A stretch of DNA of 64,000 bases from Vibrio penaeicida (GTDB lineage Bacteria > Pseudomonadota > Gammaproteobacteria > Enterobacterales > Vibrionaceae), in contig NZ_AP025145.1 in assembly GCF_019977755.1 (NCBI RefSeq), forward strand, positions 372,001 to 436,000. Direction: 5' to 3'. Below, piece after piece: positions 1 to 25,085 of this stretch. The notes below the pieces were generated by a model that ran no database searches, was not told the origin of the DNA, and saw only the letters and a program-made list of their open reading frames with translations. Position 1 is the first letter of the stretch; every line of letters begins with the position of its first letter. Position numbers and translations under genes: made by a program.

Positions 1-1120
1 CAATCGCCATCAGCTTAATGACCGTACTAGGTTGTACCTATAAAGAGCAAGATACAGCGAACGTAAACAATGACCTGGCAGCGAGTGGCGCGATAACCGT
101 GTACGTGTCGAATGATCTGATCACGTTGGCTGACAATACCCCCAAAGGCAGCAATGCCGTTGCGGTACAAGATGGCAAGATACTCGATGTGGGGCTGAAG
201 AAAAACTTGGTGAACAAATACCAAGCGCATCCAGGTTTTTCCATCAATGATGATTTTGCTGACAAAGTCATCACCCCAGGTTTTGTGGAACCTCATATCC
301 ATCTTTGGCTGAGTGGTTACAAACTCCCGAGGAACTGGAAGACAGCATGCGCCCCTACTGGGAAGATGATTATACGGTGGTGATTCATGCCAACGGAGAC
401 TTGGGCTTTGAAAGTGCTATCGAAGTGGTTGAGAAGCTCAATTCGGAACATCAACGTGAAGATCACCGCACAAGTTTTCATCATTTGGGTATCACTGACA
501 AAAACGACATTCCTAGAGCGGTTGAGTCGGGGGCGAATTTCAGCGTAAACCCTTTCTATACGCATGTTTTGGCTGAGCTATATAGTGAGTTTGGTGTTGG
601 TCAGGAAAGGGCGGAAGTGATGTCACGAGGGCGTTCATTTATTGATGCTGGAGGCGTGCTTTCTTTACATTCCGACGCTCCGATGGCACCTGCTCAGCCT
701 TTGTATTTAGTTTGGGCTGCCGTAAATCGCATTGGTTTGTCTGGCTCTACAGTGATGGGACCACAGGAAAAAATCACAGTCGATGAAGCTATGCGGGCGA
801 TAACGATTGATGCCGCCTATACAGCAAGATTGGAGAATCAAATTGGAACAATTGAACCGGGAAAATACGCAGATTTCACCATATTGGATAGCAACCCGTA
901 CAAAGTGAACCCGAAAAATATTCATGAAATAGGAGTGGAAGCGACAGTATATCGAGGTGTACCAGCCATTATTGAAAACAGCAATTCTGGTCTGGCGCTT
1001 AGTGCAACCAATCAGCGTGTCATGAGAACCTTGGCTATGCTTCCTGGTCACAGTCATAGCGATGAGTTTTGTACCACCAGCTTAATGTTTCAACAAGCCC
1101 TGACCGAAGCAACCAAATAA
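1..1120 (+). pseudogene. Broken lipoprotein amidohydrolase (YtcJ-like, amidohydrolase family 3)
   Basis: The gene enters from the left edge. The frame through position 3 reads a hydrophobic stretch ending in a VLGC lipobox, so the intact protein was probably a lipoprotein. The first part (to about 300) holds the N-terminal beta domain and the metal-binding HIH motif (FVEPHIHLW). From about 305 the reading moves to another frame, giving TPEELEDSMRPYW, a VVIHANGD motif, a later SLHSDAP metal/catalytic motif and a C-terminal IEPGKYADF segment. Family members are about 550 residues and have some 200-300 residues between the HxH and the HANGD motif; here those are gone and the frame changes at the join. 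I read this as an internal deletion with a frameshift. A functional product is unlikely. Confidence 0.82.
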
Positions 1121-1184
1121 GTGAAACCTAATGCCACGTCCGGCTTTTGAGCGGTGAATGGCATTGATTGGAGCACATTCAAGA

Positions 1185-1208
1185 AAAGGCAGTCAAATGA
1201 CTGTCTTT
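1185..1208 (+). terminator. Rho-independent terminator after the amidohydrolase remnant
   Basis: A 10-bp stem (AAAGGCAGTC / GACTGTCTTT, one G-T pair) with a 4-base loop, followed by a T-rich stretch. It lies 65 bp after the stop of the broken gene. The rest of 1121-1419 shows no gene. Confidence 0.6.
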
Positions 1209-1419
1209 GTTCTACTTTTAACGATGGTTGCAAAACGCACAGATGATTCTTTGGTACATTTGAGCCAATTAAGATAGATAATGTTTTTATCACTAGTGAA
1301 GCAATGATGACACACGGTATTGCCATTAGATGTGGTCAGCTTTGCACTTTTATGTGAGATCTCCTGCTAAAATATTGATAACAAGTTAGTAAATTAGTAC
1401 TCACTAAAAAAGAACAACT

Positions 1420-2385
1420 ATGATCAATGAAGAAAAGATAAGTCAGTGCATTGTTGATATCTATCGTCTTGCTTACGATTTGCCTATAGCTGATTTCAAA
1501 CAAGCAGCAATGAATAGGTTTAGTGAGCTTATTAAAGTAGATGTGGGGTTTTGGATAACGCGTTCCGAAATAGAAACCCCGTTTTTCGATGAAGACTCTT
1601 TCACGTACAATCTACCTGAAGGCGTTATGCAGCATTACATTGAGATCTCTTCTGTGTCTAAAACGGCTCAGGAGATATCAGGCTACTTATTTGCAAACCT
1701 TAATAAAACTTATGACGTTCAAGAAATCATTCCAGAAGAAAGATTTAAGAATTCGGATATTTACCTTATTCATTGTAAAAAATATGATTTAGAACATGCC
1801 ATGGTTACCATGACCTTAAACCCGAACAGTATGATTGTTAACGCATTCTCTTTTGTTCGAGGAGAGAGTAAGCAAAACTTTACTAAAGAAGAGCGCGAAA
1901 TTAAGCAATTTATCGTGCCAAACTTAGTGGAAGCACTAAGAATTAATCTTATTAAGTCCATCAATGATGATTCAAAAAGCAAACATAGCGTTAGAGGGAT
2001 AGTGGATAAACATGGGAAAATTATTGAATCTGAAGAGCGTTTTGAAGATTTGATGAAAGAATATGAAATGTTATCTGATAATACCGTTGACCTGAATTTA
2101 CTTGAGTCCAAACGCTTTTCTGAAAAGAATAAAGTGAGGATGAGCAATAACGACGGGCTCGTCTACATTGAAATCATCAAAGCTCCTATTAAAGATCAAC
2201 TAAGCAAGAGAAAGCTTGCTGTTTGCCAACTCCTTTGTAGGGGGCTTTCTAATAAAGAAATCGCCAGAGAGCTATTCATTTCTCAAGATGCCGTTAGTAA
2301 TCATATGAAAGAGATAAATAAAGCACTCAATGTTACTTCCCGATATCAAGCTATCGCGGTGTTATCCGAACAAGATTTAATGTGA
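1420..2385 (+). CDS. LuxR-type transcriptional regulator, upstream copy of a tandem pair
   Basis: A 321-residue protein. The last 60 residues form a LuxR/NarL-type helix-turn-helix (around LSNKEIARELFISQDAVSNHMKEI). The first 250 residues match no sensor domain I can name; no receiver aspartate pattern or membrane segment is visible, so this is a cytoplasmic one-component regulator rather than a response regulator. Its stop overlaps the next gene's start by 4 bases, and the two proteins align at both ends (EEKISQCIVDIYR versus NDKLSQYIVGIYH), so they are diverged duplicates, probably co-transcribed. The ligand and targets are unknown. The Shine-Dalgarno sequence is weak. Confidence 0.85.
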   Translation: MINEEKISQCIVDIYRLAYDLPIADFKQAAMNRFSELIKVDVGFWITRSEIETPFFDEDSFTYNLPEGVMQHYIEISSVSKTAQEISGYLFANLNKTYDVQEIIPEERFKNSDIYLIHCKKYDLEHAMVTMTLNPNSMIVNAFSFVRGESKQNFTKEEREIKQFIVPNLVEALRINLIKSINDDSKSKHSVRGIVDKHGKIIESEERFEDLMKEYEMLSDNTVDLNLLESKRFSEKNKVRMSNNDGLVYIEIIKAPIKDQLSKRKLAVCQLLCRGLSNKEIARELFISQDAVSNHMKEINKALNVTSRYQAIAVLSEQDLM

Positions 2386-3182
2386 GAGTTCAATTGCATT
2401 TACTTAATGACAAGCTGAGCCAGTATATCGTCGGCATATATCATAGCAGCCAGAGCCTACAAACAAATGATTTCAGAGTTTGGTGTATGGATAACTTAAG
2501 CAAAATACTCTCAGAAAAGACGTTTGTGTGGAGCGTTTTACGAGAGGATAGTGCCTTATCAGACATCAAACTTCATCACTTTCATTTTCAAGCAGAAGGG
2601 TCGGGGGTATCTCATATACTTGCGTTGTCAGAATCAACAGAAATCCCTTTAGATGAGAATGAAAAGAAGTTAGTCACGTTTATATTGCCCCACCTTGCAG
2701 AAGGGTTCCGCCTTAACTTGTTATCTAATTTTTATGACAGCAATAAGCACCCCAATTCTTTTAGAGCGTTGTATAGCAAAGAAGGTCATATTTTGGAGCA
2801 AGATGATGGCTATCTGCCTTTGCTGGTGTCTCAAGGAGCGGCGTTAGATCAAATTAATGCTTCTCTTTTTGACATTCAAGACAATGTCTTCACGCAATTT
2901 GGACTGATTTTCAAAGTCAATAAAAATGAAAACTACCAAATCGTCGAGGCTTGTTACCTTGGTACGAGCTTTAGCGTTTTATCGAATAAAGAAAAGGTTG
3001 TTTGTTATTACATTGGGCAAGGATTGTCTAATGAAGTAATTGCAAGCGAAATGGGTACATCAAGAAAAACGACAGAGAACCACTTAGTCAAAATTTACGA
3101 AAAGCTCGGTATTTCATCTCGTGCGCTGTTGGTTTCTAAACTCAATGACGAGAAAAACAACTTCCAGCTTTCTGTTCAGTAA
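2382..3182 (+). CDS. LuxR-type transcriptional regulator, downstream copy of a tandem pair
   Basis: A 266-residue paralogue of the preceding gene, shorter in the middle. It has the same N-terminal region and a C-terminal LuxR-type helix-turn-helix (LSNEVIASEMGTSRKTTENHLVKIYEKLGI). The GTG start at 2382 overlaps the previous stop (GTGA), typical of translational coupling; a start a few codons later cannot be excluded because similarity to the paralogue begins near LLNDKLSQ. The neighbouring surface-protein gene at 3327-6683 is convergent, so it is not part of the transcription unit. Target unknown. Confidence 0.83.
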   Translation: MRVQLHLLNDKLSQYIVGIYHSSQSLQTNDFRVWCMDNLSKILSEKTFVWSVLREDSALSDIKLHHFHFQAEGSGVSHILALSESTEIPLDENEKKLVTFILPHLAEGFRLNLLSNFYDSNKHPNSFRALYSKEGHILEQDDGYLPLLVSQGAALDQINASLFDIQDNVFTQFGLIFKVNKNENYQIVEACYLGTSFSVLSNKEKVVCYYIGQGLSNEVIASEMGTSRKTTENHLVKIYEKLGISSRALLVSKLNDEKNNFQLSVQ

Positions 3183-3262
3183 CAATGTAGTGAGACGATT
3201 GTGATTCATGAGATAATAGTTGGCTCATGAAAAAACGGTATATCAGCGAAATTTAGATAAAT

Positions 3263-3290
3263 AAGCCAGAGAATAAGTATCCTCTGGCTT
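3263..3290. terminator. Bidirectional terminator between convergent genes
   Basis: A perfect 9-bp stem AAGCCAGAG / CTCTGGCTT with a 10-base loop, between the second LuxR gene (+) and the surface-protein gene (-). On the minus strand it is followed by ATTTAT, so it probably serves mainly the minus-strand gene. Confidence 0.6.
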
Positions 3291-3326
3291 GTAAGGTTTG
3301 ATATCGGTTGGTCGGCGTAGTTAAGA

Positions 3327-6300
3327 CTATTTTTTCACTCTTCTCAACCCAATTAAGAATGCAAACAGTAACCAGCCTAGTCCAAAAGAGGCACCGCTAC
3401 TGCTTGCGCCACTGACAGTTCCGGTGCTATTGCTGATCGCCTTTGTCGTGGTTGAGAACACCGAGCTTTCGCCACCAATGGTTAGGGTTGATGTTTGCAA
3501 TGATGAGACGTTACTAGCAGACGTATGTCTAACAACAACTTCATCATTCACACTGACAGTGCCATCGACGGAAGTGAAAGCTCCCCCATTTATGCTGTAC
3601 TCACCATCAACAATCGATATGTCTGCTGGGGCGTTGATACCCGAAATCGTGATTGAAGCCGAAGCCACTAGAGTATTAAGATCAACGTCGGTCAATGCGC
3701 CTAATACAAACGCATCCGGTCTTGTGTCCGTGGTGGCTACGTTCGCTCTCGTCACGCTAGAAAATCGACCAACAATCCCACCAATCGTAAGCGTCGACGC
3801 GTTGGTATAGAGTTGACGTGGTCCCGATGTGTGGCGAACGACGACATTATCATTGAGATTTACCGTTCCCACTGCCGAGGTGAAATTCCCACCATTTACG
3901 CTGTATTCTCCATCTAGGATAGAAATTGGGGCAGGTGCATTAATGCCCGTTACGGTGATGGTGTTCGATGACACCTGAGTATTAAAGTTCACACCAGTTA
4001 CACCAGTGAAACTAAATGCATCGGGTGTTGTGTCTGCGGTTGTAGTGGCGGCTTTTGTACCGCTGACAAAGGTACTCGAAACGCCACCTATAGTGAGCGT
4101 TGTTAACGTACTAGTATTGTGTGTTGAAGCCGAAGTATGTCTGACTCGAACTTCATCTCCCGCTTCGACGGTGCTTGGCGTTGTGATATATGGTCCACTA
4201 TTAATGCTGTACTGCCCATTTGTTATCGATACAGGGCTCGGTGCATTAATTCCACCAACAGTAAATGGTGTAGAGGTAATGGTCGTGCTTAAATCAACGC
4301 CGCTTTGTCTCGCAAAACTAAATGGGCTTGGCGTGGTGTCTTTCGCTGCAGTGGTGCTGGACAAGCGAGTATTCACCCCACCTACATTTAACCCAACTTC
4401 CTTTGTGCCTGAATAGATGGCTGAAGCGTCGTAGCGGACGCTAATCACGTCATTGTTTTCAACGGTACCGCTTGAACCGAGGTATGCCCCCCCATTGATG
4501 CTGTACTGACCTCCAGCACCAACACTTATGGGTGAGGGTGCGTTGATTCCCGTAACAGTCACCACATTATTGAAAGTAATGGTTTCGTTTGGAAGGGGAG
4601 CATTACCTTGATAGTAGATGATGATAGGGAATGAATTTGGTGTAGTGTCGGCGGCCAATGTTGTGGATTCAAACGTCGCGGTAACCCCGCCAATATCAAG
4701 AGTAGAAAGCGTTGCCGTTGAAAAGCTGCTTGATGCTGTGTGCTGAACAGTCACGGTGTCGCCGTTATTCACCGTACTATTTACGCTGGTGTAAGCACCG
4801 CCATTTATGGAATATTCCCCGTTCGTAATAGATACGGGCGTGGCACCGTTAACTCCTGCTACCGTGATGGTTTCTGATGTTGCTATTGCGCTTAGCTGTG
4901 TCGGTGTTTGGGTTCCCTGAGGCTGAAGAACAAAGGCGTCTGGGGTGGTATCGACAAAATGGGTGGTAGAAGTGAACGTGGCAATGGAATCCCCAGTTGT
5001 CCACGACTTGTTGTTTCGGTGATAGCCGTTACCCGTTTTCATGATCAAGGACGTGGTGGTGTCTTGATCGGATACGCTGGACGATGTGTGAGTCAGCTCT
5101 AGGCTATCACCATCTGTTACGCCCAAAATACCGGTCATGGGGTTACCTCCTCCGTTACGAATCACCGCACCATTGGAGACAAATGCGTTAACGGTACCCG
5201 AAGGCGTGACGGAAACAGTTTGTGCATTGGATGTGACTTGAGTTGCGCCCGCAACATTGGTTTGACTGGTAAAGCTCAAGGAAGAGGCGGTTGCCGTTGC
5301 TGGTGGTATAGCAATACCTTGGTACATTATTAGCGAACCCTCAACCTTAGAACCTGTTACGTACGGAATTCCTGTGGTCCCCGCAACAATAATTTGACCA
5401 TTTTCCATGATACCTAGGGCGCTGAATTTACCTTGTTGCGAATTGTTCGTGGAAGAGTCGATAATATTGCCGGAGTTAGAGAAACTTGTTGCGGCTGAAT
5501 CTTTATCAAACTGCCACATTATCTGTTCATCAGAATTGTCGCCGATGGCAATTAAACCCGCTGATGGGCTGTATGCGACTTCGGTATAGCATTCATTGTT
5601 GGGGAGTACGTCTAGGACTCGTATACCGCCAACGCCAAATGTTGGAACAAATGCTCCAGTGCTGGTTTGGCGTTGAATGATGGCATGACCGTTTGCGTTA
5701 CAACCTACACTGACAATATCTCCACCGGGTAATATCACGCTCGCGTTCAATATGTTGTTTGTCGTCGATACCCCCGAGCCAGCGGATGAAGATAGATTGT
5801 TATGTAAAGCCCATACGTTTTGAATAGATGTATTTGCAACAGTAGGACCGAAGTTTTCAGGTTGCCCAGAAACGTTATATTTGGCAATCAACATAGAAAT
5901 CAGCGGATTGTAGCTAACATTTACACCAACATATCGACCTGTAAGATAAATGTTGTCGCTGGCATCCAATGAAATTTTTTCAAATTCAACAGAGTGGGTA
6001 TTGGATGCACCGAATCGCACCACGTTAACAAAATCCGTAGTGAACGAAGTATCTGCAGCGCCAGCCTTAGTGAGCTTTTTCATCTTGGTATAGTATTTAT
6101 CGGTGCCAAGAGAGGTTTGATAGTATTCGTGGTAGATAAAGATAATGTCGCCTGTAGAGGTTACCGCCATATCTTTTGGGTACAAGTTTTTAGACGCTTG
6201 AACAATATATTTCCCATTGGTGCCAAAGCTGGTGTCTAATGCACCACTTTCACTGAGGCGAAGTAATTCCACTTGCCAAAACCCACCCGTATTTCGGCTC

Positions 6301-9942: not shown

Positions 9943-10039
9943 TATTTGTCCTTATATGTGTTGTGGAGGGTGAGGGACTGAGGGAACACTTTATCAAACT
10001 CGATAGAAATTAAGACTCTCGAGAAAGTGAAGTAATAAT

Positions 10040-10113
10040 TCACACTTTGGAAAATATGGTTACTCTGTTTTAGGAAGTGTGATGGCTTCAACTTCAATAA
10101 AACACAAAGTGTG
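10040..10113. promoter_or_regulatory. Repeated CAAAGTGTG elements in the dehydrogenase-LysR divergent region
   Basis: TCACACTT at 10040-10047 and AAGTGTGA at 10075-10082 form an 8-bp inverted repeat. A further copy, CAAAGTGTG at 10105-10113, matches the inverted CACACTTTG at 10041-10049. Three related copies in the intergenic region between a LysR regulator and its likely target suggest regulator binding sites; this is inference. Confidence 0.45.
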
Positions 10114-10152
10114 CTTTTCTTAATTGAGATAAGTATTTTAGAGCGACAAAAC

Positions 10153-11052
10153 TTGAATAATTTACCACCTTTAAATGACATAAGAGTATTTGTGATTGCA
10201 GCTAAGTTAGGTGGTTTTTCTGCAGCAGCGAGTCAGTTAAATGTGTCACCCGCATATGTTAGTAAGCGAATTGGGCTTTTAGAAAAGCAGCTCAAGGTAA
10301 AACTTTTCCTTCGCTCATCAAGGCAGGTGACGTTGACTCTCGAAGGAAAAGTCGCTCTAAAGTGGTCAATGCAGATATTAGATGCAGCTGAACGGATGTT
10401 TGTTGATATTAATTATGAGCATGAAGTACCGCGAGGAAGTTTACGTATTACGACCAGTACGGGGTTTGGCAGCCAGTGTATTGCTCCCATTATTTCTGAG
10501 TTAGTACGGAATTATCCAGAATTAAGTGTAGATCTTGAACTACTAGATAGACCAGTAGGTCTTCTAGAGGAAGGGTTTGATCTTGAGATAAAAATAGGAG
10601 GAGAGCTGCCACAAAACATGATCGCGAAAAAGTTAGCGGTAAACTCTCGTATCATATGTTCATCGAGTCGGTACATTTCAGAGCATGGTGAGCCGCGTAC
10701 TGTTGCAGAATTAAAAGATCACACATGTATTAGTATTCGAGAGCGAGATCAACATTATCAGTCATGGCAGCTCGATGGTAAAAATGGCAAAGCTTCTATT
10801 GACTTTTATCGTAAGCTAAGTACCAACAATGGCTTGGTAGCAAAGCAGTGGTGTATAGATGGTCATGGTGTAATGCTTCGATCAATTTGGAACGTCAAAG
10901 ACGAAATTACCAAAGGGAAATTGATTCGAATTTTACCCGACTTCGAGCAACAAGCAGATATTCATGCGATCTTCCCTGTTCGTCTAGAAACCTCCGCAAA
11001 GCTAAAAGTTTGTGTGAACTTGTTAAAATCTCGGCTTCCTATCTACTTGTAA
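10153..11052 (+). CDS. LysR-type regulator, probable activator of the divergent dehydrogenase gene
   Basis: About 299 residues if it begins at the TTG at 10153 (LNNLPPLNDIRVF). The open frame extends back to GTG at 10111, but that segment overlaps the repeated CAAAGTGTG element and does not look coding. Residues 5-65 are the winged helix-turn-helix (FSAAASQLNVSPAYVSKRIGLLE), and the rest is a periplasmic-binding-like effector domain beginning near PRGSLRITTSTGFG. It belongs to the DmlR/YeaT-like branch by context and likely senses the dehydrogenase substrate. The exact start remains uncertain; no strong ribosome site is visible. Confidence 0.83.
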   Translation: MNNLPPLNDIRVFVIAAKLGGFSAAASQLNVSPAYVSKRIGLLEKQLKVKLFLRSSRQVTLTLEGKVALKWSMQILDAAERMFVDINYEHEVPRGSLRITTSTGFGSQCIAPIISELVRNYPELSVDLELLDRPVGLLEEGFDLEIKIGGELPQNMIAKKLAVNSRIICSSSRYISEHGEPRTVAELKDHTCISIRERDQHYQSWQLDGKNGKASIDFYRKLSTNNGLVAKQWCIDGHGVMLRSIWNVKDEITKGKLIRILPDFEQQADIHAIFPVRLETSAKLKVCVNLLKSRLPIYL

Positions 11053-11251
11053 TGCTTAAGTTATATACCCAAGTAACCTCGCCCTTAGGAGCCCAACTTC
11101 TGTCCCACTCAACAGTAATAAGGAATCCGTGTGGTCGTTTAGCAACTGTTTCATTTATTTTTCTCACATCAGACTATCTGTACTGGATTGGTTGTTCTAA
11201 ACACTAGATTGGCATTTAAGTGGTTATCTGACGTGAAAAAGGAACCAAGGC

Positions 11252-12199
11252 ATGAAAAAAATCCTTCTACTTTCGTTCTCGGGGTTCGTGCTAATTGCCA
11301 TCATTGCCTACGCTGTAACGCCGATTCCGACACTCTTTCGATATATAGCGAATGCAGAACGAAGCATGGCAGGTTTAGAGCTTAAGCAAATCCAAGTTGG
11401 TGAACTCGATATCGAATACCTTCGTGGGGGAAGCGGCCCTCCACTTGTGCTGCTTCATGGCTTTGGTGCAGATAAGGACAATTGGGTACGAATATCCGGC
11501 GATCTTGTGAGTGACTTTGATGTTATTGCGATTGATTTACCAGGCTTTGGGAACAGCACGCAGAACATTGCGTTGGATTATGATGTGCTCTCACAAGTTA
11601 AAAGGGTAAAGCGAATAACTGAGGCTTTGAATCTCACAGAGTTTAATCTAGCTGGCAGCTCAATGGGTGGATACATAGCAGGGAACTTTGCGGCTCAATA
11701 CCCCAATACAGTGGAACACTTATGGCTTGTTAGCCCCTTTGGCGTAGAAGGCTCGGAGGTTAGCGAGATGTTTGCTGCAACCAAGAAAGGGCTTAACCCA
11801 ATGGTCTTACCCAGAACAGAAGCCGAGTTTATGGATCTGCTCGATTTTCTGTTTGTTGAACCGCCATTTATCCCTTCTCCCATCGTGCGTCATTTAGCAG
11901 GCAAAGCGAAAGAAAGCGTCGAGATAAACACCAAAATCTTCGAGCAAATACATCGAATGAAAAATGGTGAGCCTCACCCTGACTTGCCTTTGGATAGTGT
12001 TTTAGAAAATTACAGTGGTTCGGTACTGATCACATGGGGCGAGAAAGACAGAGTGCTGCATGTTTCGGGTGCGTCGGTTTTAAAGCAAGTTATCCCGCAT
12101 GCTCAACTGGATATCGCCCCTAACGTCGGCCATTTGCCTATGGTAGAAACCCCTTCAGAAACCGCACAATCGTTTCTATCATTTGCAGAAAAGCACTAA
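11252..12199 (+). CDS. Membrane-anchored or exported alpha/beta hydrolase
   Basis: A 315-residue protein with an N-terminal hydrophobic helix (residues 4-21) that is either a signal peptide or an anchor. The alpha/beta fold is clear: oxyanion region LLHGFGADKDNW, nucleophile elbow GSSMGG, catalytic acid in TWGEKDRVLH, and His in NVGHLPMVE. It is a predicted esterase or lipase of unknown substrate. It stands alone between the LysR gene and the convergent mer operon; 11053-11251 contains nothing recognisable. Confidence 0.85.
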   Translation: MKKILLLSFSGFVLIAIIAYAVTPIPTLFRYIANAERSMAGLELKQIQVGELDIEYLRGGSGPPLVLLHGFGADKDNWVRISGDLVSDFDVIAIDLPGFGNSTQNIALDYDVLSQVKRVKRITEALNLTEFNLAGSSMGGYIAGNFAAQYPNTVEHLWLVSPFGVEGSEVSEMFAATKKGLNPMVLPRTEAEFMDLLDFLFVEPPFIPSPIVRHLAGKAKESVEINTKIFEQIHRMKNGEPHPDLPLDSVLENYSGSVLITWGEKDRVLHVSGASVLKQVIPHAQLDIAPNVGHLPMVETPSETAQSFLSFAEKH

Positions 12200-12256
12200 G
12201 TTTGAGTGTTTCACTGTGTAGCCAAATCACGGGAGGTCTGTTATTGGTCTCCGAGG

Positions 12257-12475
12257 CTACCCCTTACAGCATGCCTTCGGGTTTTGTTGTATTGGGGGGC
12301 AAGGAACGGTGCCATACGAGCAATAAACGCAACAATCCCCAGGTTTCGGCTTTAATAACTGATGGCAGTGCTCACATTCGTAAAACCACTGACAGGCATT
12401 TGTGGGCATCACGTCAATTTTTTTATTCTCACAGTGCGGGCAGGTCAGTTCGGACTCTAGGACAATATCAGTCAT
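12257..12475 (-). CDS. GDCCVxC-domain small Cys-rich protein of the mer operon
   Basis: A 72-residue cytoplasmic protein with 13 Cys: CPHC near residue 12, CEHC near 34, the signature GDCCVYCSYGTVPCPP and a C-terminal ACC. The first two pairs look like a zinc ribbon. The GDCCVxC family is repeatedly found next to mercury-resistance genes, and some relatives are selenoproteins; here the motif positions are ordinary Cys codons. The start overlaps the merP stop by 8 bases, indicating co-translation. Binding or delivery of thiophilic metal is a reasonable guess, not shown. Confidence 0.8.
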   Translation of the reverse strand: MTDIVLESELTCPHCENKKIDVMPTNACQWFYECEHCHQLLKPKPGDCCVYCSYGTVPCPPIQQNPKACCKG

Positions 12476-12758
12476 GATTCGTCACCTGCTTAGCGGTGGA
12501 AGGGTAGCCGGCGTCAGTGGTGGATTTCTCCAAACTTACGATGTCCGTTAATTCATCGTCAAAAGTGACATGTGCAAGCTTGTCTTCAAGATACGTTTCA
12601 ACGTTCGTTACGCCTTCCACTCGGTTTAGTGCAGCCTTTATCGTGATTGGGCATACAGGGCAAGACATACTAGGAATATCCAACTCGACAATTTGCTCTT
12701 TTGCCATAGCAGAACTCACCGCTACGACACTGAGTAGCATTACGATCAATCTAGTCAT
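12468..12758 (-). CDS. merP: Periplasmic mercury-binding protein MerP
   Basis: A 96-residue protein with a Sec signal peptide ending near AMA, then a heavy-metal-associated (HMA) domain whose metal loop is MSCPVCPIT (CxxC; most MerP have CAAC). MerP binds Hg(II) in the periplasm and passes it to MerT. It follows merT after 12 bp and overlaps the GDCCVxC gene. Confidence 0.88.
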   Translation of the reverse strand: MTRLIVMLLSVVAVSSAMAKEQIVELDIPSMSCPVCPITIKAALNRVEGVTNVETYLEDKLAHVTFDDELTDIVSLEKSTTDAGYPSTAKQVTNHD

Positions 12759-12770
12759 TTTTCAGCTCCT

Positions 12771-13115
12771 TTAAACGAAGAACACTATCCAGTATGGACT
12801 TGCTATCAAGATTAACGCGACGACTGAAGCCATCCATAGAACCACTTTTTGACGCTTGCGAACCTTTGGAATCGAGCATGCAGCATCTTCCTGCCATTGG
12901 TCGATAGGGCGGTAGATGCGTCTAATGGCTAAAATGAAGAATGTAAGTACGGCAATGATGAAGATAGGTCGATAGGGTTCCAGCATAGTTAAACTACTGA
13001 TCCATGAACCACTCACTCCTAGCAACAGTAATATCAAAGGACCGACACAGCATAAGCTGGCACCAACAGCGGCAATCATTCCACTTATTAATGGGATAGA
13101 TGGCGTTTTATCCAC
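12771..13115 (-). CDS. merT: Mercuric transport protein MerT
   Basis: About 114 residues with three transmembrane helices. The first carries the vicinal Cys pair in ASLCCVGP; a further Cys (CSIP) lies in the cytoplasmic loop. MerT takes Hg(II) from MerP and moves it inward. I place the start at GTG 13115, six bases after AGGAG; this gives the usual family length (about 116). An open frame reaching TTG 13157 would start inside the promoter -10 region and is unlikely. Confidence 0.88.
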   Translation of the reverse strand: MDKTPSIPLISGMIAAVGASLCCVGPLILLLLGVSGSWISSLTMLEPYRPIFIIAVLTFFILAIRRIYRPIDQWQEDAACSIPKVRKRQKVVLWMASVVALILIASPYWIVFFV

Positions 13116-13148
13116 AATAGACTCCTGTTGCGACTTTTGATTTATTAA

Positions 13149-20332: not shown

Positions 20333-23300
20333 TTATTTGCGAACGTCGATACGAACGTCACCCATCTCCAGAGCGTGGTTTTCACCAGCATCTTCGGCTA
20401 ACGAGAAATCCAATTGGTTAGCTAGCGTTTCTTCTTGCAAGTAGTCTTGGTGTTTCTCGATCCATTGCTGAACGTCTGGTGAGGTATGAATAGAAATAGA
20501 GATGGTATCCGTTACTTCTAGCCCCATGGTCTTACGGGTTTTCTGAATCCGGCTGATCACTTCTCTCACCATGCCTTCTGCAATAAGTTCGTCGGTGAGA
20601 TTAGGGTCGATTTCCATGGAAATGAATCGATTGGATACCGCGTTAAACCCTTCTTTTGCTTTACGGTAAATGACGATCTCTTCTTCGGTGAAGCTCTGAC
20701 CATCAATGTCAATTTGCCCTTGCTGCTGCAAGCGATCAATGTCGTCTGCGGTTAACTGATCAATTAAGCTGGCGAAGTGCTTCATTTGCTTACCAAGTCG
20801 TTTACCCAACACAGGGAAGTTCGCCTTGGCGTACAAGTCGATAAACTGGTTCTCTTCAGTACTGAATTCGAGGGTTTTGATATTCAGTTCCGACTTGATG
20901 TAACCGGCCAATCGTTCCACATCGCGCAACTCTTCCGGATCACGGTGAAGGACCGTAGCGCGGCTAAGAGGTGTCTTGGTTTTGACCTTCATCTCGTTAC
21001 GCTTCTGGCGACCCATAACGACGAGGTGTTTGAAGCGCTCGACACTGTTTTCCAGCTCCAGCTTTTTCGCTTCGGTGTTTGGCTGCGGGTAATCGCACAA
21101 ATGCACGGAGAGTGGCTGTTCACTTTCTTGCGAGTAGCCTTTGAGTTCTTGGTATACATGCTCCGACAAGAAAGGCGCAAAAGGTGCCATCAGTGTTGAG
21201 AAGGTATTTAAGCAGTAGTAAAGCGTTGCGTAGGCGCTGTCTTTGTCTTGGTTCATTTCAGATTGCCAAAAACGTGCGCGGTTTAAACGGATGTACCAGT
21301 TGGTTAAGTCGTCCAAGAATTCAAACAAAGGTGGTACAACTTCGTACAATCGGTACGCCTGCATTTCAGTGTTTACTTTCTGCTTTAAGCTTTCTAATCG
21401 AGACACGATCCATTGGTCTAAGATGTTATCTGTGTCCAGTTTGCCCGACGCTTTCCAATCGTCGATATCAGCGTAAGTCTTAAAGAATTTGAAACCGTTG
21501 TACCAAGGAAGCAGCACTTGTCGCACCATTTCTTGAACGCCGCTGTCTGCGAATCTTTGTTCTTCCGCTTTTACCAAGCCTGAATTGATCAAGTACAAGC
21601 GCAAGGCATCGGCACCGTATTCTTCCATCAGAATGTCTGGAGCGGTGTAGTTCTTCAAACGCTTAGACATCTTTTTGCCATCTTCTGCCATCACAATGCC
21701 GTTAACGATCACGTTGCTAAACGCAGGCTTGTTAAATAAGGCTTCGCTGAGTACTTGTAAGGTGTAGAACCAACCACGAGTTTGGTCGACCCCTTCAGCA
21801 ATGAAGGACGCTGGGAAGTTGGATTCAAACTTCTCTTTGTTTTCGAACGGGTAGTGAGCTTGCGCGTAAGGCATGGATCCAGACTCGAACCAACAGTCGA
21901 ACACTTCAGGAATACGGCGGTAAACCCCTTCTTCGTTTGGCAAACTAAAGGTAAGGTCGTCCACGTGGTCACGGTGTAAATCAGACACTTCTTTACCCGT
22001 CAGTTTGGTCAGTTCCTCAATCGAACCAACACACAAGTGGTTACCGGTTTTTTCGTTGATCCAGATTGGAAGCGGCGTTCCCCAGTAACGGTTTCGGGAA
22101 ATCGCCCAATCGATCGCGTTTTCCAACCATTTGCCCATTCTTCCTTGCTGGATATGTTCTGGAACCCATTTGATTTGTTGGTTGTTCTTGACCAGATTGT
22201 CGCGAATTTCTGTCACTCTTACATACCAGGAAGGCACGGTACGGTAGATGATTGGTGTATCGGAACGCGGGCAGAATGGGTAGCTGTGCATTAGCGTTTC
22301 TTGGCGATACAGCAATCCTTTGTCTTTAAGAGCGTGAAGGATAGGTTTGTCGGCATCTTTCACATAGGTGTTGGAAAAATCGTTCACTTCTTCAGTGAAT
22401 CGACCACGAGTGTCTAGTGGGCAAACGCTGATTTCGACACCGTGTTCACGACATACACGTTGGTCGTCTTCACCAAAGGCGGGTGCCATATGAACAATGC
22501 CTGTACCGCTATCTAGGGAAACATACCCATCTGCAAGTACTTGGAATGCGCCTTTTTCACTGTGAGCGGAAAAGTATGGGAAAAGTGGCTGGTAGGTTTT
22601 GCCTGTTAGCTCGCTGCCTTTTGCTTTGGTCAGTACTTCGAATTCATTGTTTTTCAGAACCACTTCCATTCTGGCTTCGGCAAGCCATAGGGTTTTATCC
22701 GTGGTTTTGTCCTGTACTTTTACGTAGTCAATATCTGGGTTAACACAGAGCGCTAAGTTAGAAGGTAACGTCCATGGTGTGGTTGTCCATGCGGCGAGAT
22801 AAGCATCTTCATCATCGAGTTTGAATAGAACGGTTGCGGCCGGATCTTGAACGTCTTTGTAGTTAGAAGAAGCTTCAAAGTTAGAAAGAACCGTTTCCAG
22901 TTCTGTGGAGTAAGCAACCACTTTCTCGCCTTGGTATACCAAGCCTTTGCCCCAAAGCTGCTTGAAGACCCACCAAACGGATTCCATGTACCATGGTTCC
23001 ATGGTGCGATAGTCATTTTTGAAATCGACCCAACGACCCAAACGAGAAATGGTTTTTTCCCACTCTTGGGTATAACGCTGAACGATGCCACGGCATTCAT
23101 CGTTGTATTTGGTGATGCCAAATTTTTCCACTGTCTCTTTAGCAGACATGCCCAACGCTTTATCGATTTCGTGCTCGATGGGTAATCCATGGCAATCCCA
23201 ACCGAATCGGCGTTCCACGTGATGACCTAGCATGGTTTGGTAACGAGGAACGATGTCTTTGATGGTAGAGGCAACAAGATGACCATGATGAGGCAGGCCC

Positions 23301-23506
23301 GTTGCAAACGGAGGACCATCATAGAAGATAAACTCTGGCTTGCCTTTGGATTGTTCAAGTGACTTTTCGAAGACTTGGTTTTGCTGCCAAAAATTCAATA
23401 CATCGTGTTCAGCTTGTACGAAAGAAAACTTCGTTGATGAAGTCGGTTGGGTCGATGACGCTTCTTCTTGGGATGACGAAGCGGTTTGGCTAGGTTGTGT
23501 CGACAT
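20333..23506 (-). CDS. ileS: Isoleucyl-tRNA synthetase, IleS2 (eukaryote-like) type
   Basis: A 1,057-residue class I synthetase that charges tRNA-Ile and edits misactivated valine. The HIGH-type motif is in PPFATGLPHHGHL and the KMSKS-type motif is KKMSKRLKN. The length, the PPFATGLPHHGHL form and the C-terminus mark the IleS2 group; usual gammaproteobacterial IleS1 is about 940 residues with PPYANGxIHIGH. IleS2 enzymes are generally little affected by the antibiotic mupirocin. A Ser/Thr/Gln-rich extension of about 25 residues precedes the conserved FSFVQAEHDVLNFW. AGAGGTAAGT before ATG 23506 supports the start. The gene stands alone; the leader looks like an isoleucine attenuator. A second, housekeeping ileS may exist elsewhere. 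Confidence 0.95.
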   Translation of the reverse strand: MSTQPSQTASSSQEEASSTQPTSSTKFSFVQAEHDVLNFWQQNQVFEKSLEQSKGKPEFIFYDGPPFATGLPHHGHLVASTIKDIVPRYQTMLGHHVERRFGWDCHGLPIEHEIDKALGMSAKETVEKFGITKYNDECRGIVQRYTQEWEKTISRLGRWVDFKNDYRTMEPWYMESVWWVFKQLWGKGLVYQGEKVVAYSTELETVLSNFEASSNYKDVQDPAATVLFKLDDEDAYLAAWTTTPWTLPSNLALCVNPDIDYVKVQDKTTDKTLWLAEARMEVVLKNNEFEVLTKAKGSELTGKTYQPLFPYFSAHSEKGAFQVLADGYVSLDSGTGIVHMAPAFGEDDQRVCREHGVEISVCPLDTRGRFTEEVNDFSNTYVKDADKPILHALKDKGLLYRQETLMHSYPFCPRSDTPIIYRTVPSWYVRVTEIRDNLVKNNQQIKWVPEHIQQGRMGKWLENAIDWAISRNRYWGTPLPIWINEKTGNHLCVGSIEELTKLTGKEVSDLHRDHVDDLTFSLPNEEGVYRRIPEVFDCWFESGSMPYAQAHYPFENKEKFESNFPASFIAEGVDQTRGWFYTLQVLSEALFNKPAFSNVIVNGIVMAEDGKKMSKRLKNYTAPDILMEEYGADALRLYLINSGLVKAEEQRFADSGVQEMVRQVLLPWYNGFKFFKTYADIDDWKASGKLDTDNILDQWIVSRLESLKQKVNTEMQAYRLYEVVPPLFEFLDDLTNWYIRLNRARFWQSEMNQDKDSAYATLYYCLNTFSTLMAPFAPFLSEHVYQELKGYSQESEQPLSVHLCDYPQPNTEAKKLELENSVERFKHLVVMGRQKRNEMKVKTKTPLSRATVLHRDPEELRDVERLAGYIKSELNIKTLEFSTEENQFIDLYAKANFPVLGKRLGKQMKHFASLIDQLTADDIDRLQQQGQIDIDGQSFTEEEIVIYRKAKEGFNAVSNRFISMEIDPNLTDELIAEGMVREVISRIQKTRKTMGLEVTDTISISIHTSPDVQQWIEKHQDYLQEETLANQLDFSLAEDAGENHALEMGDVRIDVRK

Positions 23507-23526
23507 ACTTACCTCTAATGGGTTTT

Positions 23527-23600
23527 CCTAAGAGGTTAAGTAAGAAACCCACCTCTTAGGTGGGTTTTTTTAGATTCTTAGCTGCGTAAGCTATCCCACC
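23527..23600 (-). promoter_or_regulatory. Candidate ileS attenuator: competing antiterminator and terminator hairpins
   Basis: On the minus strand, in order: GGTGGG at 23600-23595 (overlapping the last codons of the leader ORF), then the terminator stem AAACCCACCT / AGGTGGGTTT (23567-23558 and 23554-23545, loop of 3) with the U-rich tail TTTCTTACTT. GGTGGG is the exact complement of CCCACC in the 5' arm of the terminator, giving an alternative 2:3 pairing. A 1:2 pairing is also possible (TATCC with GGATA, flanked by GC). In addition CCTAAGAGGT (23560-23551) can pair with ACCTCTTAGG (23536-23527). The tail is less uniform than in the best terminators. Confidence 0.72.
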
Positions 23601-23659
23601 ATTCCGATTGAAATGATGATTATAATTCGTTGGATACCAGCTTGCGCGATCGTGTTCAT
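23591..23659 (-). CDS. Isoleucine-rich leader peptide of ileS
   Basis: A 22-codon ORF, ATG at 23659 and TAG ending at 23591. Eight of 22 residues are Ile, five of them consecutive (ATT ATA ATC ATC ATT at 23626-23612) and another two codons later. The stop lies 23 bases before the terminator stem. No gene was called here because of its size. Leader peptides rich in the regulated amino acid are known for ilv, leu, his, trp, thr and pheST attenuators. No Shine-Dalgarno is visible, and the predicted transcription start lies at or next to the ATG, so it may be translated leaderless. Function inferred from composition and position. Confidence 0.72.
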   Translation of the reverse strand: MNTIAQAGIQRIIIIISIGMVG

Positions 23660-23665
23660 AAATGC

Positions 23666-23694
23666 AGCATCGCAGAATGTGTTTTACCTGTCAA
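23666..23694 (-). promoter_or_regulatory. Candidate promoter of the ileS leader
   Basis: On the minus strand: consensus -35 TTGACA (23694-23689), a 17-bp spacer and -10 GATGCT (23671-23666) with an extended TGC just before it. The -10 is poor, but spacing, -35 and the TGn element are good. The start of transcription would fall about 6 bases later, at the leader ATG. Confidence 0.5.
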
Positions 23695-23759
23695 TCAAGT
23701 TGGCTAGTACATTCTTCACGTTGACTAAAAACAGGCTAGCCAACGCGAAATTTAGACCA

Positions 23760-25085
23760 TTACGCCCCAGTGCAAGTATCTGCACCTTGATCAAGCCAAG
23801 TGCCAAACTTTCCAGTGTCCGCCGGTTCTGTTTGGTTCCAGTATCTCGCTTTCCAGATTCTGCCGTTCCAGCTCACTAAATCGCCAGATTGGTAAGCTTT
23901 TCCGCTTTGCCAAGCTTCCGCGCAGCCATTCCCTGGGTTAGTTGGGTTGGAAGAGTCTGTAACCGTCGCTTTTATTGCAGCGGTGTGGATCTTTGTACCT
24001 GTTCTATCGATGGTGAAGTCCAGCTTCACTTCTGCGGTACCTGCTGCGATAGCGCCAAAGGTCGCTTGTATGGAGCACGCTCTGCCCGCAAGCAGTGGCG
24101 CGGTTGTGCATTTATCGATTGTCATGGCTGGTGTTTCAGCAACGCCTGAACCGGTTAAGTTTGCCGACGTAATATTGATGTCTGCCGTGCCAGTATTACG
24201 AATGGTAAAGAAGTGCTTTTTGCTTTGTCCAAGCTCAAACCCTTCAACCTGAATCGATTTCTTGTAAGTGAAGGCGACTTGGTCGTCTGGATGGGCGATG
24301 ACCCCTTTGATCCAATCATGGTAATGCGTCACATCGCTGTACACACCGTATTTGCCCGGACGAGCACAACCGACTCCCCAGCTCACCACACCAAGTTGGC
24401 TGACTTGTCCGCCTTGGTTAACAACGATTGGACCACCGCTGTCACCAGAGCAAGAGTCTTTCCCGCCTTCAAGGTAGCCTGCACAAAATGCCGATTTTCC
24501 GATATACCCGTTTTGGTAGGCACCGCCTGCGGCGTTACAGGTTTCGGTTGATACCAGAGGTACGTCCACTTCCTGCAATACTTTTGGCGAAGGGCCTTTT
24601 TCTACCGTACGACCTAGCCCAGCAACGGTCAGTGGATCGCCCACTCGAACATATTGGCTCAAGTTGGTTTGCCCCAAATTCACGCCACTAAATCCAGTCG
24701 GTATGCTTTTCAGCTCAATTACCGCGATGTCGTTTAAGCCATACGCTGCTTCATATTCTGGATGCATAAATACGCGTTTTACCTCGAAGCGCGTGCCTTC
24801 TTTATTCTCAAACTTATATCCACCCAGCTTAACGTCAAAGAAAGCGGTATGTTTGTTGCGCAAGCAGTGGGCAGCCGTGAGTACAAAGCCCTCACCAAGG
24901 TAGCTACCACCGCAAAAAGAGCGCTCGCTGTAAGACGGAACGATCTGAGCGAAGAATTGCCAGTCGGCTGGGTTTGCGTCGTTGCCGTTCACAATTCTGG
25001 GGGTAATGTCTGAAGCGCTTGCCGTCATAGGCAGCATAAGGCTGGTAGCCACTGCCAGCATGTTGAGTTTCATCTGTGATTTCAT
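23760..25085 (-). CDS. Secreted trypsin-like protease with chitin-binding (CBM5/12) module
   Basis: A 441-residue protein: Sec signal peptide (cleavage near ASA, residue 25), an IVNG activation site at residue 31, and an S1 peptidase domain with triad H73 (TAAHC), D119 (NDIAV) and S216 (GDSGGP). D210 in the S1 pocket position predicts cleavage after Lys/Arg. An Ig-like region (about 270-380) follows, then a CBM5/12 module (AYQSGDLVSWNGRIWKARYW) near the C-terminus. Similar secreted vibrio proteases exist. The chitin module suggests action on crustacean shell or chitin-associated protein. It is the gene just upstream of the ileS leader, on the same strand, with a separate promoter for ileS likely. 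Confidence 0.9.
   Translation of the reverse strand: MKSQMKLNMLAVATSLMLPMTASASDITPRIVNGNDANPADWQFFAQIVPSYSERSFCGGSYLGEGFVLTAAHCLRNKHTAFFDVKLGGYKFENKEGTRFEVKRVFMHPEYEAAYGLNDIAVIELKSIPTGFSGVNLGQTNLSQYVRVGDPLTVAGLGRTVEKGPSPKVLQEVDVPLVSTETCNAAGGAYQNGYIGKSAFCAGYLEGGKDSCSGDSGGPIVVNQGGQVSQLGVVSWGVGCARPGKYGVYSDVTHYHDWIKGVIAHPDDQVAFTYKKSIQVEGFELGQSKKHFFTIRNTGTADINITSANLTGSGVAETPAMTIDKCTTAPLLAGRACSIQATFGAIAAGTAEVKLDFTIDRTGTKIHTAAIKATVTDSSNPTNPGNGCAEAWQSGKAYQSGDLVSWNGRIWKARYWNQTEPADTGKFGTWLDQGADTCTGA

Follow-up and report, generated by a model that had tools for sequence, protein, structure and literature searches.

How a bacterium with two isoleucyl-tRNA synthetases (IleRS) might keep one of them silent until it is needed is the question raised by the ileS2 gene of Vibrio penaeicida, which follows a short isoleucine-rich open reading frame (ORF) and a hairpin. 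We analyzed this region in a window of 64,000 nucleotides, the whole stretch of DNA considered here, and positions are given in window coordinates. An earlier note on this DNA had recognized the layout of an amino-acid attenuator, in which a ribosome stalled on Ile codons leaves the motif GGTGGG free to pair. Comparison with related loci supports this layout, and an Ile run, a terminator and a predicted antiterminator are all found. An Ile-responsive attenuator ahead of ileS2 is predicted from the sequence with great confidence, and it is very probable that this ribosome-mediated isoleucine attenuator controls ileS2 as an accessory gene. Its use here would be, with moderate confidence, to switch on a spare IleRS once the housekeeping IleS1 falls short of demand. 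The earlier reading stands by comparison and was incomplete: it missed the membership in the Rfam family P9, the protector formed by the Ile codons, the probable leaderless start and the segment that would mask the Shine-Dalgarno (SD) sequence.

A leader ORF and a chain of complementary segments precede ileS2

The features of the locus, all on the minus strand, are as follows.

23689..23694, minus strand: predicted -35 element TTGACA, beginning 35 nt ahead of the leader ATG
23666..23671, minus strand: predicted -10 element GATGCT (poor match), spacer 17 nt, 6 nt ahead of the ATG
23591..23659, minus strand: leader ORF of 22 codons, MNTIAQAGIQRIIIIISIGMVG, from ATG 23659 to TAG 23591, eight Ile, no SD; the predicted transcription start is the A of the ATG
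23639..23647, minus strand: segment 1, lower protector strand GCGCAAGCT, partner AGCTTACGC at 23592-23584 with one mismatch (folding; permutation test, 18 loci)
23612..23626, minus strand: run of five Ile codons (ATT ATA ATC ATC ATT)
23610..23619, minus strand: segment 1, upper protector strand TCATCATTTC (Ile codons), partner GGAATGGTGG at 23605-23596 (folding and pair counts)
23595..23600, minus strand: segment 2, antiterminator strand GGTGGG, overlapping the last leader codons
23579..23593, minus strand: small hairpin TAGCT/AGCTA nested within the antiterminator (folding)
23559..23564, minus strand: segment 3, CCCACC, terminator 5' arm, exact complement of GGTGGG
23545..23567, minus strand: terminator hairpin, 10-bp stem, AAG loop, weak U-tract
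23548..23558, minus strand: segment 4, TAAGAGGTGGG, loop and 3' arm of the terminator
23527..23536, minus strand: segment 5, ACCTCTTAGG, complementary to segment 4 and the last C bases of the 5' arm (10 bp), and also to the ileS2 SD
23511..23516, minus strand: segment 6, ileS2 SD AGAGGT
20333..23506, minus strand: ileS2, predicted type-2 isoleucyl-tRNA synthetase of 1057 aa with an HHGH signature, start at 23506

Several elements described in the earlier note are confirmed from the sequence: the coordinates of the leader ORF with its eight Ile codons, five of them consecutive; the perfect 10-bp terminator stem (AAACCCACCT/AGGTGGGTTT, 23567-23558 / 23554-23545, AAG loop), which starts 23 bases past the leader stop; and the exact complementarity of GGTGGG (23600-23595) to CCCACC (23564-23559). 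The tail after the terminator is poor in T (CTTACTT), and a simple terminator scan of the window does not list the stem.

The Ile codons TCATCATT pair with AATGGTGG, so the codons predicted to sense Ile-tRNA also hold the antiterminator strand. A second, lower stem joins the start of the ORF to the bases after the GGTGGG arm, with letters that vary by species (ACGCAAAC/GTTTGCGT in locus L022, TTACTCAGCAACG/CGTTGTTGAGTAA in L044, TTGCGAT/ATCGCAA in L055). In 18 representative loci, the lower protector strands pair with their own partners at -13.2 kcal/mol versus -9.76 kcal/mol when partners are swapped between loci, and none of 20000 swaps is as good; individually, the own duplex ranks first in its row at only 5 of the 18 loci (for the window, it is 10th of 18 by row and 1st by column).

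Folding the leader, a check proposed in the earlier note, favors the attenuator. Two stretches that include the terminator fold at z -3.6 and -4.3 (0 of 200 shuffles as good), while the excess is modest for the ORF stretch without the terminator (z -1.6, 12 of 200 shuffles as good). We folded 15 leaders, eight of ileS2 and seven of other genes, none from the group in which IleS2 is the only IleRS found. The free full RNA folds as 1:2, 3:4 and 5:6 in all 15, and when the RNA is cut just before GGTGGG and ends at segment 3, the arm pairs with segment 3 (2:3) in all 15. Thus, in the model, a mutually exclusive antiterminator would form once segment 1 is removed.

The folding suggests a cascade of six segments, with 1:2, 3:4 and 5:6 formed in the OFF state and 2:3 and 4:5 in the ON state. 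From the parts, their conservation, their complementarity and their predicted folding, we infer how it may respond to the charging of Ile-tRNA. With ample Ile-tRNA, a ribosome translating the leader would reach the stop codon and cover GGTGGG, and the terminator (3:4) would form; in transcripts that escape termination, segment 5 would be free to mask the ileS2 SD in the cell (5:6). Untranslated RNA would fold OFF too, via 1:2, because the Ile codons and the lower stem hold GGTGGG. With Ile-tRNA in short supply, a ribosome stalled on the Ile run would take segment 1 away and GGTGGG would pair with segment 3 (2:3), which would leave segment 4 for segment 5 (4:5) and the ileS2 SD open. When both states are enforced with all bases before GGTGGG removed, ON lies at -25.5 versus -31.4 for OFF in the window; ON is the less stable state in 12 of the 15 leaders, including the window, and the more stable one in three (L044, L131 and L142). 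The ON state would therefore have to be kinetic, aided by the order of transcription.

The leader transcript is predicted to be leaderless

An SD ahead of the leader ORF at -4 kcal/mol or better is found in only 2 of 33 leaders, versus 25 of 29 downstream genes. In 21 of 22 ileS2 leaders, and in 18 of 19 after thinning (the exception is L017), the top-scoring promoter-like pair lies with its end 6-8 nt ahead of the ATG; TTGAC is present in 17 of the 19. The same spacing is found in 11 of 14 leaders of other genes, and 5 is the maximum that 300 shuffles reach for either set. The promoter weights are approximate, and in leaders with several in-frame starts (e.g. L043, L050, L051, L088 and L096) the start was picked by eye, which may favor the spacing. 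A promoter-like pair that abuts the ATG predicts that transcription begins with the A of this codon, and thus it is likely, judging from sequence, that the leader transcript begins at its own AUG. A simple promoter scan of the window lists none, and the -10 element GATGCT matches TATAAT at 3 of 6 positions.

Directly upstream of the -35 element, a 9-bp inverted repeat on the minus strand was seen by eye (GTTGGCTAG at 23744-23736 and CTAGCCAAC at 23707-23699, with a 28-base gap); it spans 23699-23744 and might serve as an operator or mark where the protease transcript ends. The protease, a trypsin-like protein with a CBM_5_12 carbohydrate-binding module, is encoded at 23760-25085 (minus strand). 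On the other side of ileS2 lies a serine hydrolase of the beta-lactamase fold (PF00144; 18468-19958, minus strand). Neither neighbor resembles a tRNA-charging function.

The layout is conserved across ileS2 loci

We fetched 80 loci by the IleS2 protein alone, which makes 81 with the window. The layout, comprising an Ile-rich mini-ORF, a GG-rich arm and a CCCRCC/GGYGGG terminator, is found at 18 of the 81 loci; upstream DNA is scant at some of the others (none at L094, about 155 nt at L100), so that absence of the layout there is not established. Four further ileS2 leaders came from P9 matches in the window's own order, giving 22 aligned leaders (of 23 pattern matches; L073 fits the terminator pattern, has neither a GG-rich arm nor an Ile leader and was dropped). 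The layout also occurs in Marinomonas and other gammaproteobacteria.

Most of the near-invariant columns of the alignment fall in the antiterminator arm, the CCC.CC arm and the 3' arm of the terminator. The antiterminator arm is exactly GGTGGG in 18 of the 22 leaders (not in L047, L052, L096 or L079, which has an N). It is read as Val-Gly in many leaders and lies past the stop codon in L017, L043 and L088; being kept in both positions, it is conserved as RNA and not as peptide. The 36 nt before the arm hold 3 to 7 Ile codons.

Using a structure taken from the window's row, which favors it, 89.3% of the alignment cells are paired, versus 36-53% when the structure is slid and 85.8% in letter shuffles. 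Changes on both sides occur in 6 of 20 pairs versus 1-3 when slid, and 7 of 500 shuffles reach 6; this bears out the compensatory changes that the earlier note had asked for. The six core terminator pairs are standard in all 22 leaders. The window alone has CCCACC/GGTGGG, against CCCGCC/GGCGGG in the other 21; the terminator has thus changed on both sides, and the 2:3 helix of the window becomes fully Watson-Crick as well. The earlier note had staked its reading beforehand on the conservation of an Ile run and of the pairing in close relatives, and both the Ile-rich leader and the pairings are kept.

The leader is associated with genomes that encode two IleRS

The window protein is classified as ileS by TIGR00392 (973 against 621, over the cut-off), and its assignment to type 2 rests on the HHGH signature, family models and kin. 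We rejected the mupirocin-resistant MupA/MupB type, since the protein scores 772 bits for MupB and 761 bits for MupA versus a cut-off of 1900 in the NCBIfam exception models. The same genome encodes a 946-aa IleS1-type enzyme with a zinc finger (zf-FPG_IleRS), 29% identical over the shared part, and is therefore a two-IleRS genome. Type-2 IleRS have been described as mupirocin-resistant, coexisting with type 1 in some Bacillaceae (PMC10485003). By analogy, the IleS2 of the window is presumably a spare, mupirocin-tolerant IleRS.

An IleS2 of this kind is found in only 5 of 394 genomes of the order (E up to 1e-200). In a FastTree phylogeny of 85 rows, the window belongs to a 12-member clade, fully supported by the local values, that includes Vibrio, Veronia, Marinomonas and two further families, and all 12 members have the leader. 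IleS1 is shown for 11 of them; the twelfth (L046) was outside the IleS1 search and is grouped with the two-IleRS genomes in the tree labels by assumption. The longest upstream ORFs at the 12 loci are dissimilar except for one pair of near-copies, so leader and gene appear to move together.

The IleS1 search covered the genomes of 48 loci and four further genomes, 52 in all, plus the window's own genome. IleS1 was found in 15 of the 53, many of which are metagenome-assembled, so that a sole IleS2 means here that no IleS1 was found. The leader stands before IleS2 in 12 of the 15 genomes with both types versus 9 of the 38 others (Fisher p 0.00034, uncorrected for descent). The nine leader-bearing genomes in which IleS2 is the only IleRS found indicate that a role as a spare enzyme is not universal; in such lineages, the same leader would be plain self-regulation.

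The three two-IleRS genomes without a leader (L071, L072 and L092) have closely similar IleS2. At L072 (seen in L161 at 9981-13127, Pseudoalteromonas luteoviolacea MMG009), ileS2 lies beside ketosynthase-type polyketide genes, and the switch is absent. It is also absent at L071 (seen in L162 at 931-4077, Vibrio sp. S9_S30), which shares 8.9 kb with the L161 region at 98.6% identity. The shared region is probably a mobile antibiotic cluster that brings a resistant synthetase along. L092 is P. luteoviolacea NCIMB 1944, for which thiomarinol production has been reported (PMC5069768). A thiomarinol plasmid encodes TmlM as its resistant IleRS (PMC3069032). Antibiotic producers that need no induction would fit an ileS2 without the switch.

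These distributions bear on the purpose of the switch. The attenuator might serve ordinary upkeep of Ile-tRNA during isoleucine shortage and not be an answer to IleRS inhibitors, a purpose to which we give somewhat less than an even chance: a charging sensor cannot distinguish starvation from inhibition, and the nine genomes with only IleS2 agree with it, whereas the prevalence of the leader in two-IleRS genomes and the nature of the three exceptions (one adjacent to polyketide genes, one sharing its region, one a reported thiomarinol producer) speak against it. For the accessory IleS2, we infer that it is kept off until the charging of Ile-tRNA fails, by starvation or by an inhibitor of IleS1.

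A fifth segment may couple termination to SD access

A stretch past the terminator, ACCTCTTAGG, has two pairing partners: its complement CCTAAGAGGT, which lies in the terminator, and the SD of ileS2, AGAGGT. Partners change together in L043 (GCCTCTTAGG and CCTAAGAGGC, with the SD AAGAGGC), L045 (CGGCTTC with GAAGCCG), L147, a DUF4440 gene (TCTCTTT with AAAGAGA), and L150, a kinase gene (TCCTGCTT with AAGCAGGA).

A plain four-segment transcription attenuator of the trp/ilv type, in which pairing between segment 5 and the SD is a by-product of GGAGG-like and CCTC-like letters, is the main structural alternative. It is at odds with the swap test across 30 loci (nine ileS2 of the Vibrio/Marinomonas type and 21 other genes; L129 was included with a wrong gene start, leaving a segment 5 of 7 nt), in which own partners beat all swaps between loci (0 of 20000 as good for 4:5 and 0 of 20000 for 5:6). 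The nine Vibrio/Marinomonas-type ileS2 alone give 50 and 82 of 20000, respectively. When segment 5 is shuffled, 4:5 exceeds the letter shuffles at the 5% level in 28 of 28 loci, again contrary to a by-product, whereas 5:6 does so in only 15 of 28, as a four-segment device would have it, despite being present in all 15 folds; for the window, the values are 0 of 300 (4:5) and 0.01 (5:6). The shuffle test leaves out L129 and the near-copy L025; L053, which has no sure gene start, is excluded from all 4:5 and 5:6 tests. The four-segment view is also favored by the nine ileS2 leaders outside the clade (eight sole-IleS2 loci and L049, which has both IleRS types), where no sign of segment 5 is seen (6251 and 7328 of 20000); this negative is weak, as the gene start of L079 is wrong or doubtful and the segment 5 cuts of L051 and L055 are very short. 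Overall, we consider the four-segment device rather improbable for this locus, and a working 4:5/5:6 layer within the six-segment cascade is somewhat favored.

The leader belongs to the Rfam family P9

The Rfam family P9 (RF00624, "Pseudomonas sRNA P9") matches positions 23629-23544 with 48.2 bits (gathering threshold 43, E 3.3e-7 for the window) and is the only Rfam match over gathering in a covariance-model scan of the window. To our knowledge, P9 has no stated function. Its consensus, translated by hand, reads as an Ile leader itself: AUU AUU AUU ACC GCC AUU ... AUG GCG GGU UAG, or Ile-Ile-Ile-Thr-Ala-Ile ... Met-Ala-Gly-stop. The upper hairpin and the terminator are common to both, and the score of the window element is over gathering. 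The two differ in that Rfam types P9 as a gene and names it an sRNA, and in that the model ends at the terminator, without the lower stem, segment 5 or the promoter that the ileS2 leader has. A T-box riboswitch was not among the 13 Rfam matches up to E 1 in 23400-23800, of which P9 alone is over gathering.

Of the 6 P9 matches in the V. penaeicida genome at E up to 10, the ileS2 leader alone exceeds the cut-off. Among the 394 genomes of the order, P9 matches occur in 60 at E 0.001 and in 16 over the cut-off. The genes downstream of these 16 loci are five ileS2, eight PRK08118-like kinases, one AAA_33 kinase and two DUF4440 genes, as read from the downstream ORFs (family models were run on some only). 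All five genomes of the order with this IleS2 have a P9 match over the Rfam cut-off just upstream of the gene. This test is independent, as the Rfam model does not rest on our self-built leader model R1; R1 was made from leaders that include the five of this order, and its top ranks there are circular. At E 0.01, R1 matches 241 of the 394 genomes, including thr leaders and probably chance matches, and 30 fetched loci were read. In a sample of the class, P9 is over the cut-off in 3 of 274 genomes, one of which is the V. penaeicida genome, and the two other loci precede ORFs that look DUF4440-like. Some matches below the cut-off (L034, L037 and L040) lack an Ile run, so weak P9 matches are not all of the Ile-leader kind.

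It is very improbable that the hairpin stands before ileS2 incidentally, either to end transcripts of the upstream protease gene (rejected on the dissimilar upstream ORFs, which are alike only in the two near-copies) or as a free P9 sRNA acting in trans: Rfam does file P9 as a gene and not a leader, a terminated leader of about 115-125 nt would resemble an sRNA, and the S. meliloti attenuator RNA rnTrpL is reported to act in trans too (PMC7298713), but the element contains an ORF with Ile codons, its promoter-like pair keeps its position, and it goes with ileS2 and not with the upstream gene.

Similar leaders precede small kinases and DUF4440 proteins

P-loop kinases, too, follow Ile leaders of the P9-like type (L131, L128, L129, L130, L136, L137, L138, L141, L142, L144, L145, L148, L149, L150 and L160), which often end in RIIIIP* and lie near 1480-1600 of those loci. 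For L131, L136 and L024 (the L128 locus), the match is to PRK08118, "DNA topology modulation protein", with scores under the model cut-off, and the remaining kinases were assigned by look. The same leader type precedes DUF4440/SnoaL-like genes at L127 (= L014), L139 (= L026), L143 (= L033), L147, L158 and L159, an assignment made by model scan for L014, L026 and L147 and by look for the others. An AAA_33 P-loop kinase, scanned in both cases, follows a P9-type leader at L013 and L029.

Leaders of thr genes before ORFs that look aspartokinase-like also score. The V. penaeicida genome has a Thr leader over the Rfam cut-off (L164; G000:C1:3421182-3421303, minus strand; MLNHRSIVTTTIIITDIRIVGAGW), with a G-rich arm and Ile codons that recall the P9 layout.

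Rather than an sRNA family, P9 might be a "domino" class of leaderless attenuators with six segments, which would read the charging of Ile-tRNA and act on both termination and SD access. Such a class would form a portable alarm for IleRS failure before the spare IleRS2 and other accessory genes (PRK08118-like P-loop kinases, AAA_33 kinases and DUF4440/SnoaL proteins), which may also protect against natural products that target IleRS. We regard this generalization as tentative and, on balance, unlikely. Nevertheless, a family named only as an sRNA gains a testable function, and the switch offers a concrete inducing condition with which to ask what the small kinases and DUF4440 proteins behind it do. 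The proposed attenuator, in which the position of one ribosome would set both termination and translation via a chain of alternating helices, predicts how bacteria with two IleRS silence the type-2 enzyme until the main one fails, in contrast to the switch-free version of ileS2 in or near antibiotic clusters.

Comparison with known attenuators

Classical trp, ilv and thr leaders have a 5' UTR with an SD, whereas the predicted promoter of the ileS2 leader abuts the ATG and two extra segments reach the SD of the gene. The Thr leader of the same genome also differs, with TTGACT about 70 nt ahead of its ATG (by eye, unscored). An ORF of cognate codons, a protector, an antiterminator and a terminator are common to the ileS2 leader, the trp/ilv/thr attenuators of gammaproteobacteria and pheST.

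Vecchione and Sello reportedly found an indolmycin-resistant auxiliary TrpRS of S. coelicolor to be under ribosome-mediated attenuation. That system is alike in that an inhibitor-resistant auxiliary synthetase is induced by a shortage of its own charging, and it differs in the amino acid (tryptophan) and the lineage (Actinobacteria). The locus described here would add a gammaproteobacterial Ile case to such auxiliary synthetases. A synthetase under leader-peptide attenuation is also known in pheST, candidate attenuators have been proposed before trpS2 and leuS in Streptomyces, and T-boxes precede ileS in Actinobacteria (all in PMC1262725).

In B. subtilis tlrB (yxjB), stalling on a leader peptide with tylosin relieves both termination and SD masking (PMC6851288). 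That system involves drug-dependent arrest at an RYR motif and NusG pausing, with no antiterminator identified, whereas for the ileS2 leader we predict stalling through lack of Ile-tRNA and helices that alternate in a chain. The attenuator RNA of S. meliloti trpL (rnTrpL) starts at the ATG of its leader ORF, and differs in concerning Trp, in belonging to an alphaproteobacterium and in the trans roles shown there (PMC7298713). The ilv-leu operon of S. aureus has a branched-chain leader peptide with Ile codons and is said to rise on mupirocin; the leader is Leu-rich, the genes are biosynthetic and not a synthetase, and the organism is a Firmicute (PMC5794164). In Caulobacter, a small ORF before ileS is named "ileS leader CDS" (CCNA_03934) in a figure legend, and the likeness is one of position before ileS only (PMC4117421).

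A literature search, mostly of journals readable without subscription, returned no description of an Ile attenuator before ileS in gammaproteobacteria and no paper on P9 or RF00624, and the main text of a survey of premature terminators (PMC2965389) nowhere contains "isoleuc", "ilv" or "vibrio". Attenuators before synthetases, and the coupling of termination to SD masking with a leader peptide, are already known. What is new is the combination, on an accessory IleRS, of a predicted leaderless start, a protector made of the Ile codons and six alternating segments that reach to the SD.
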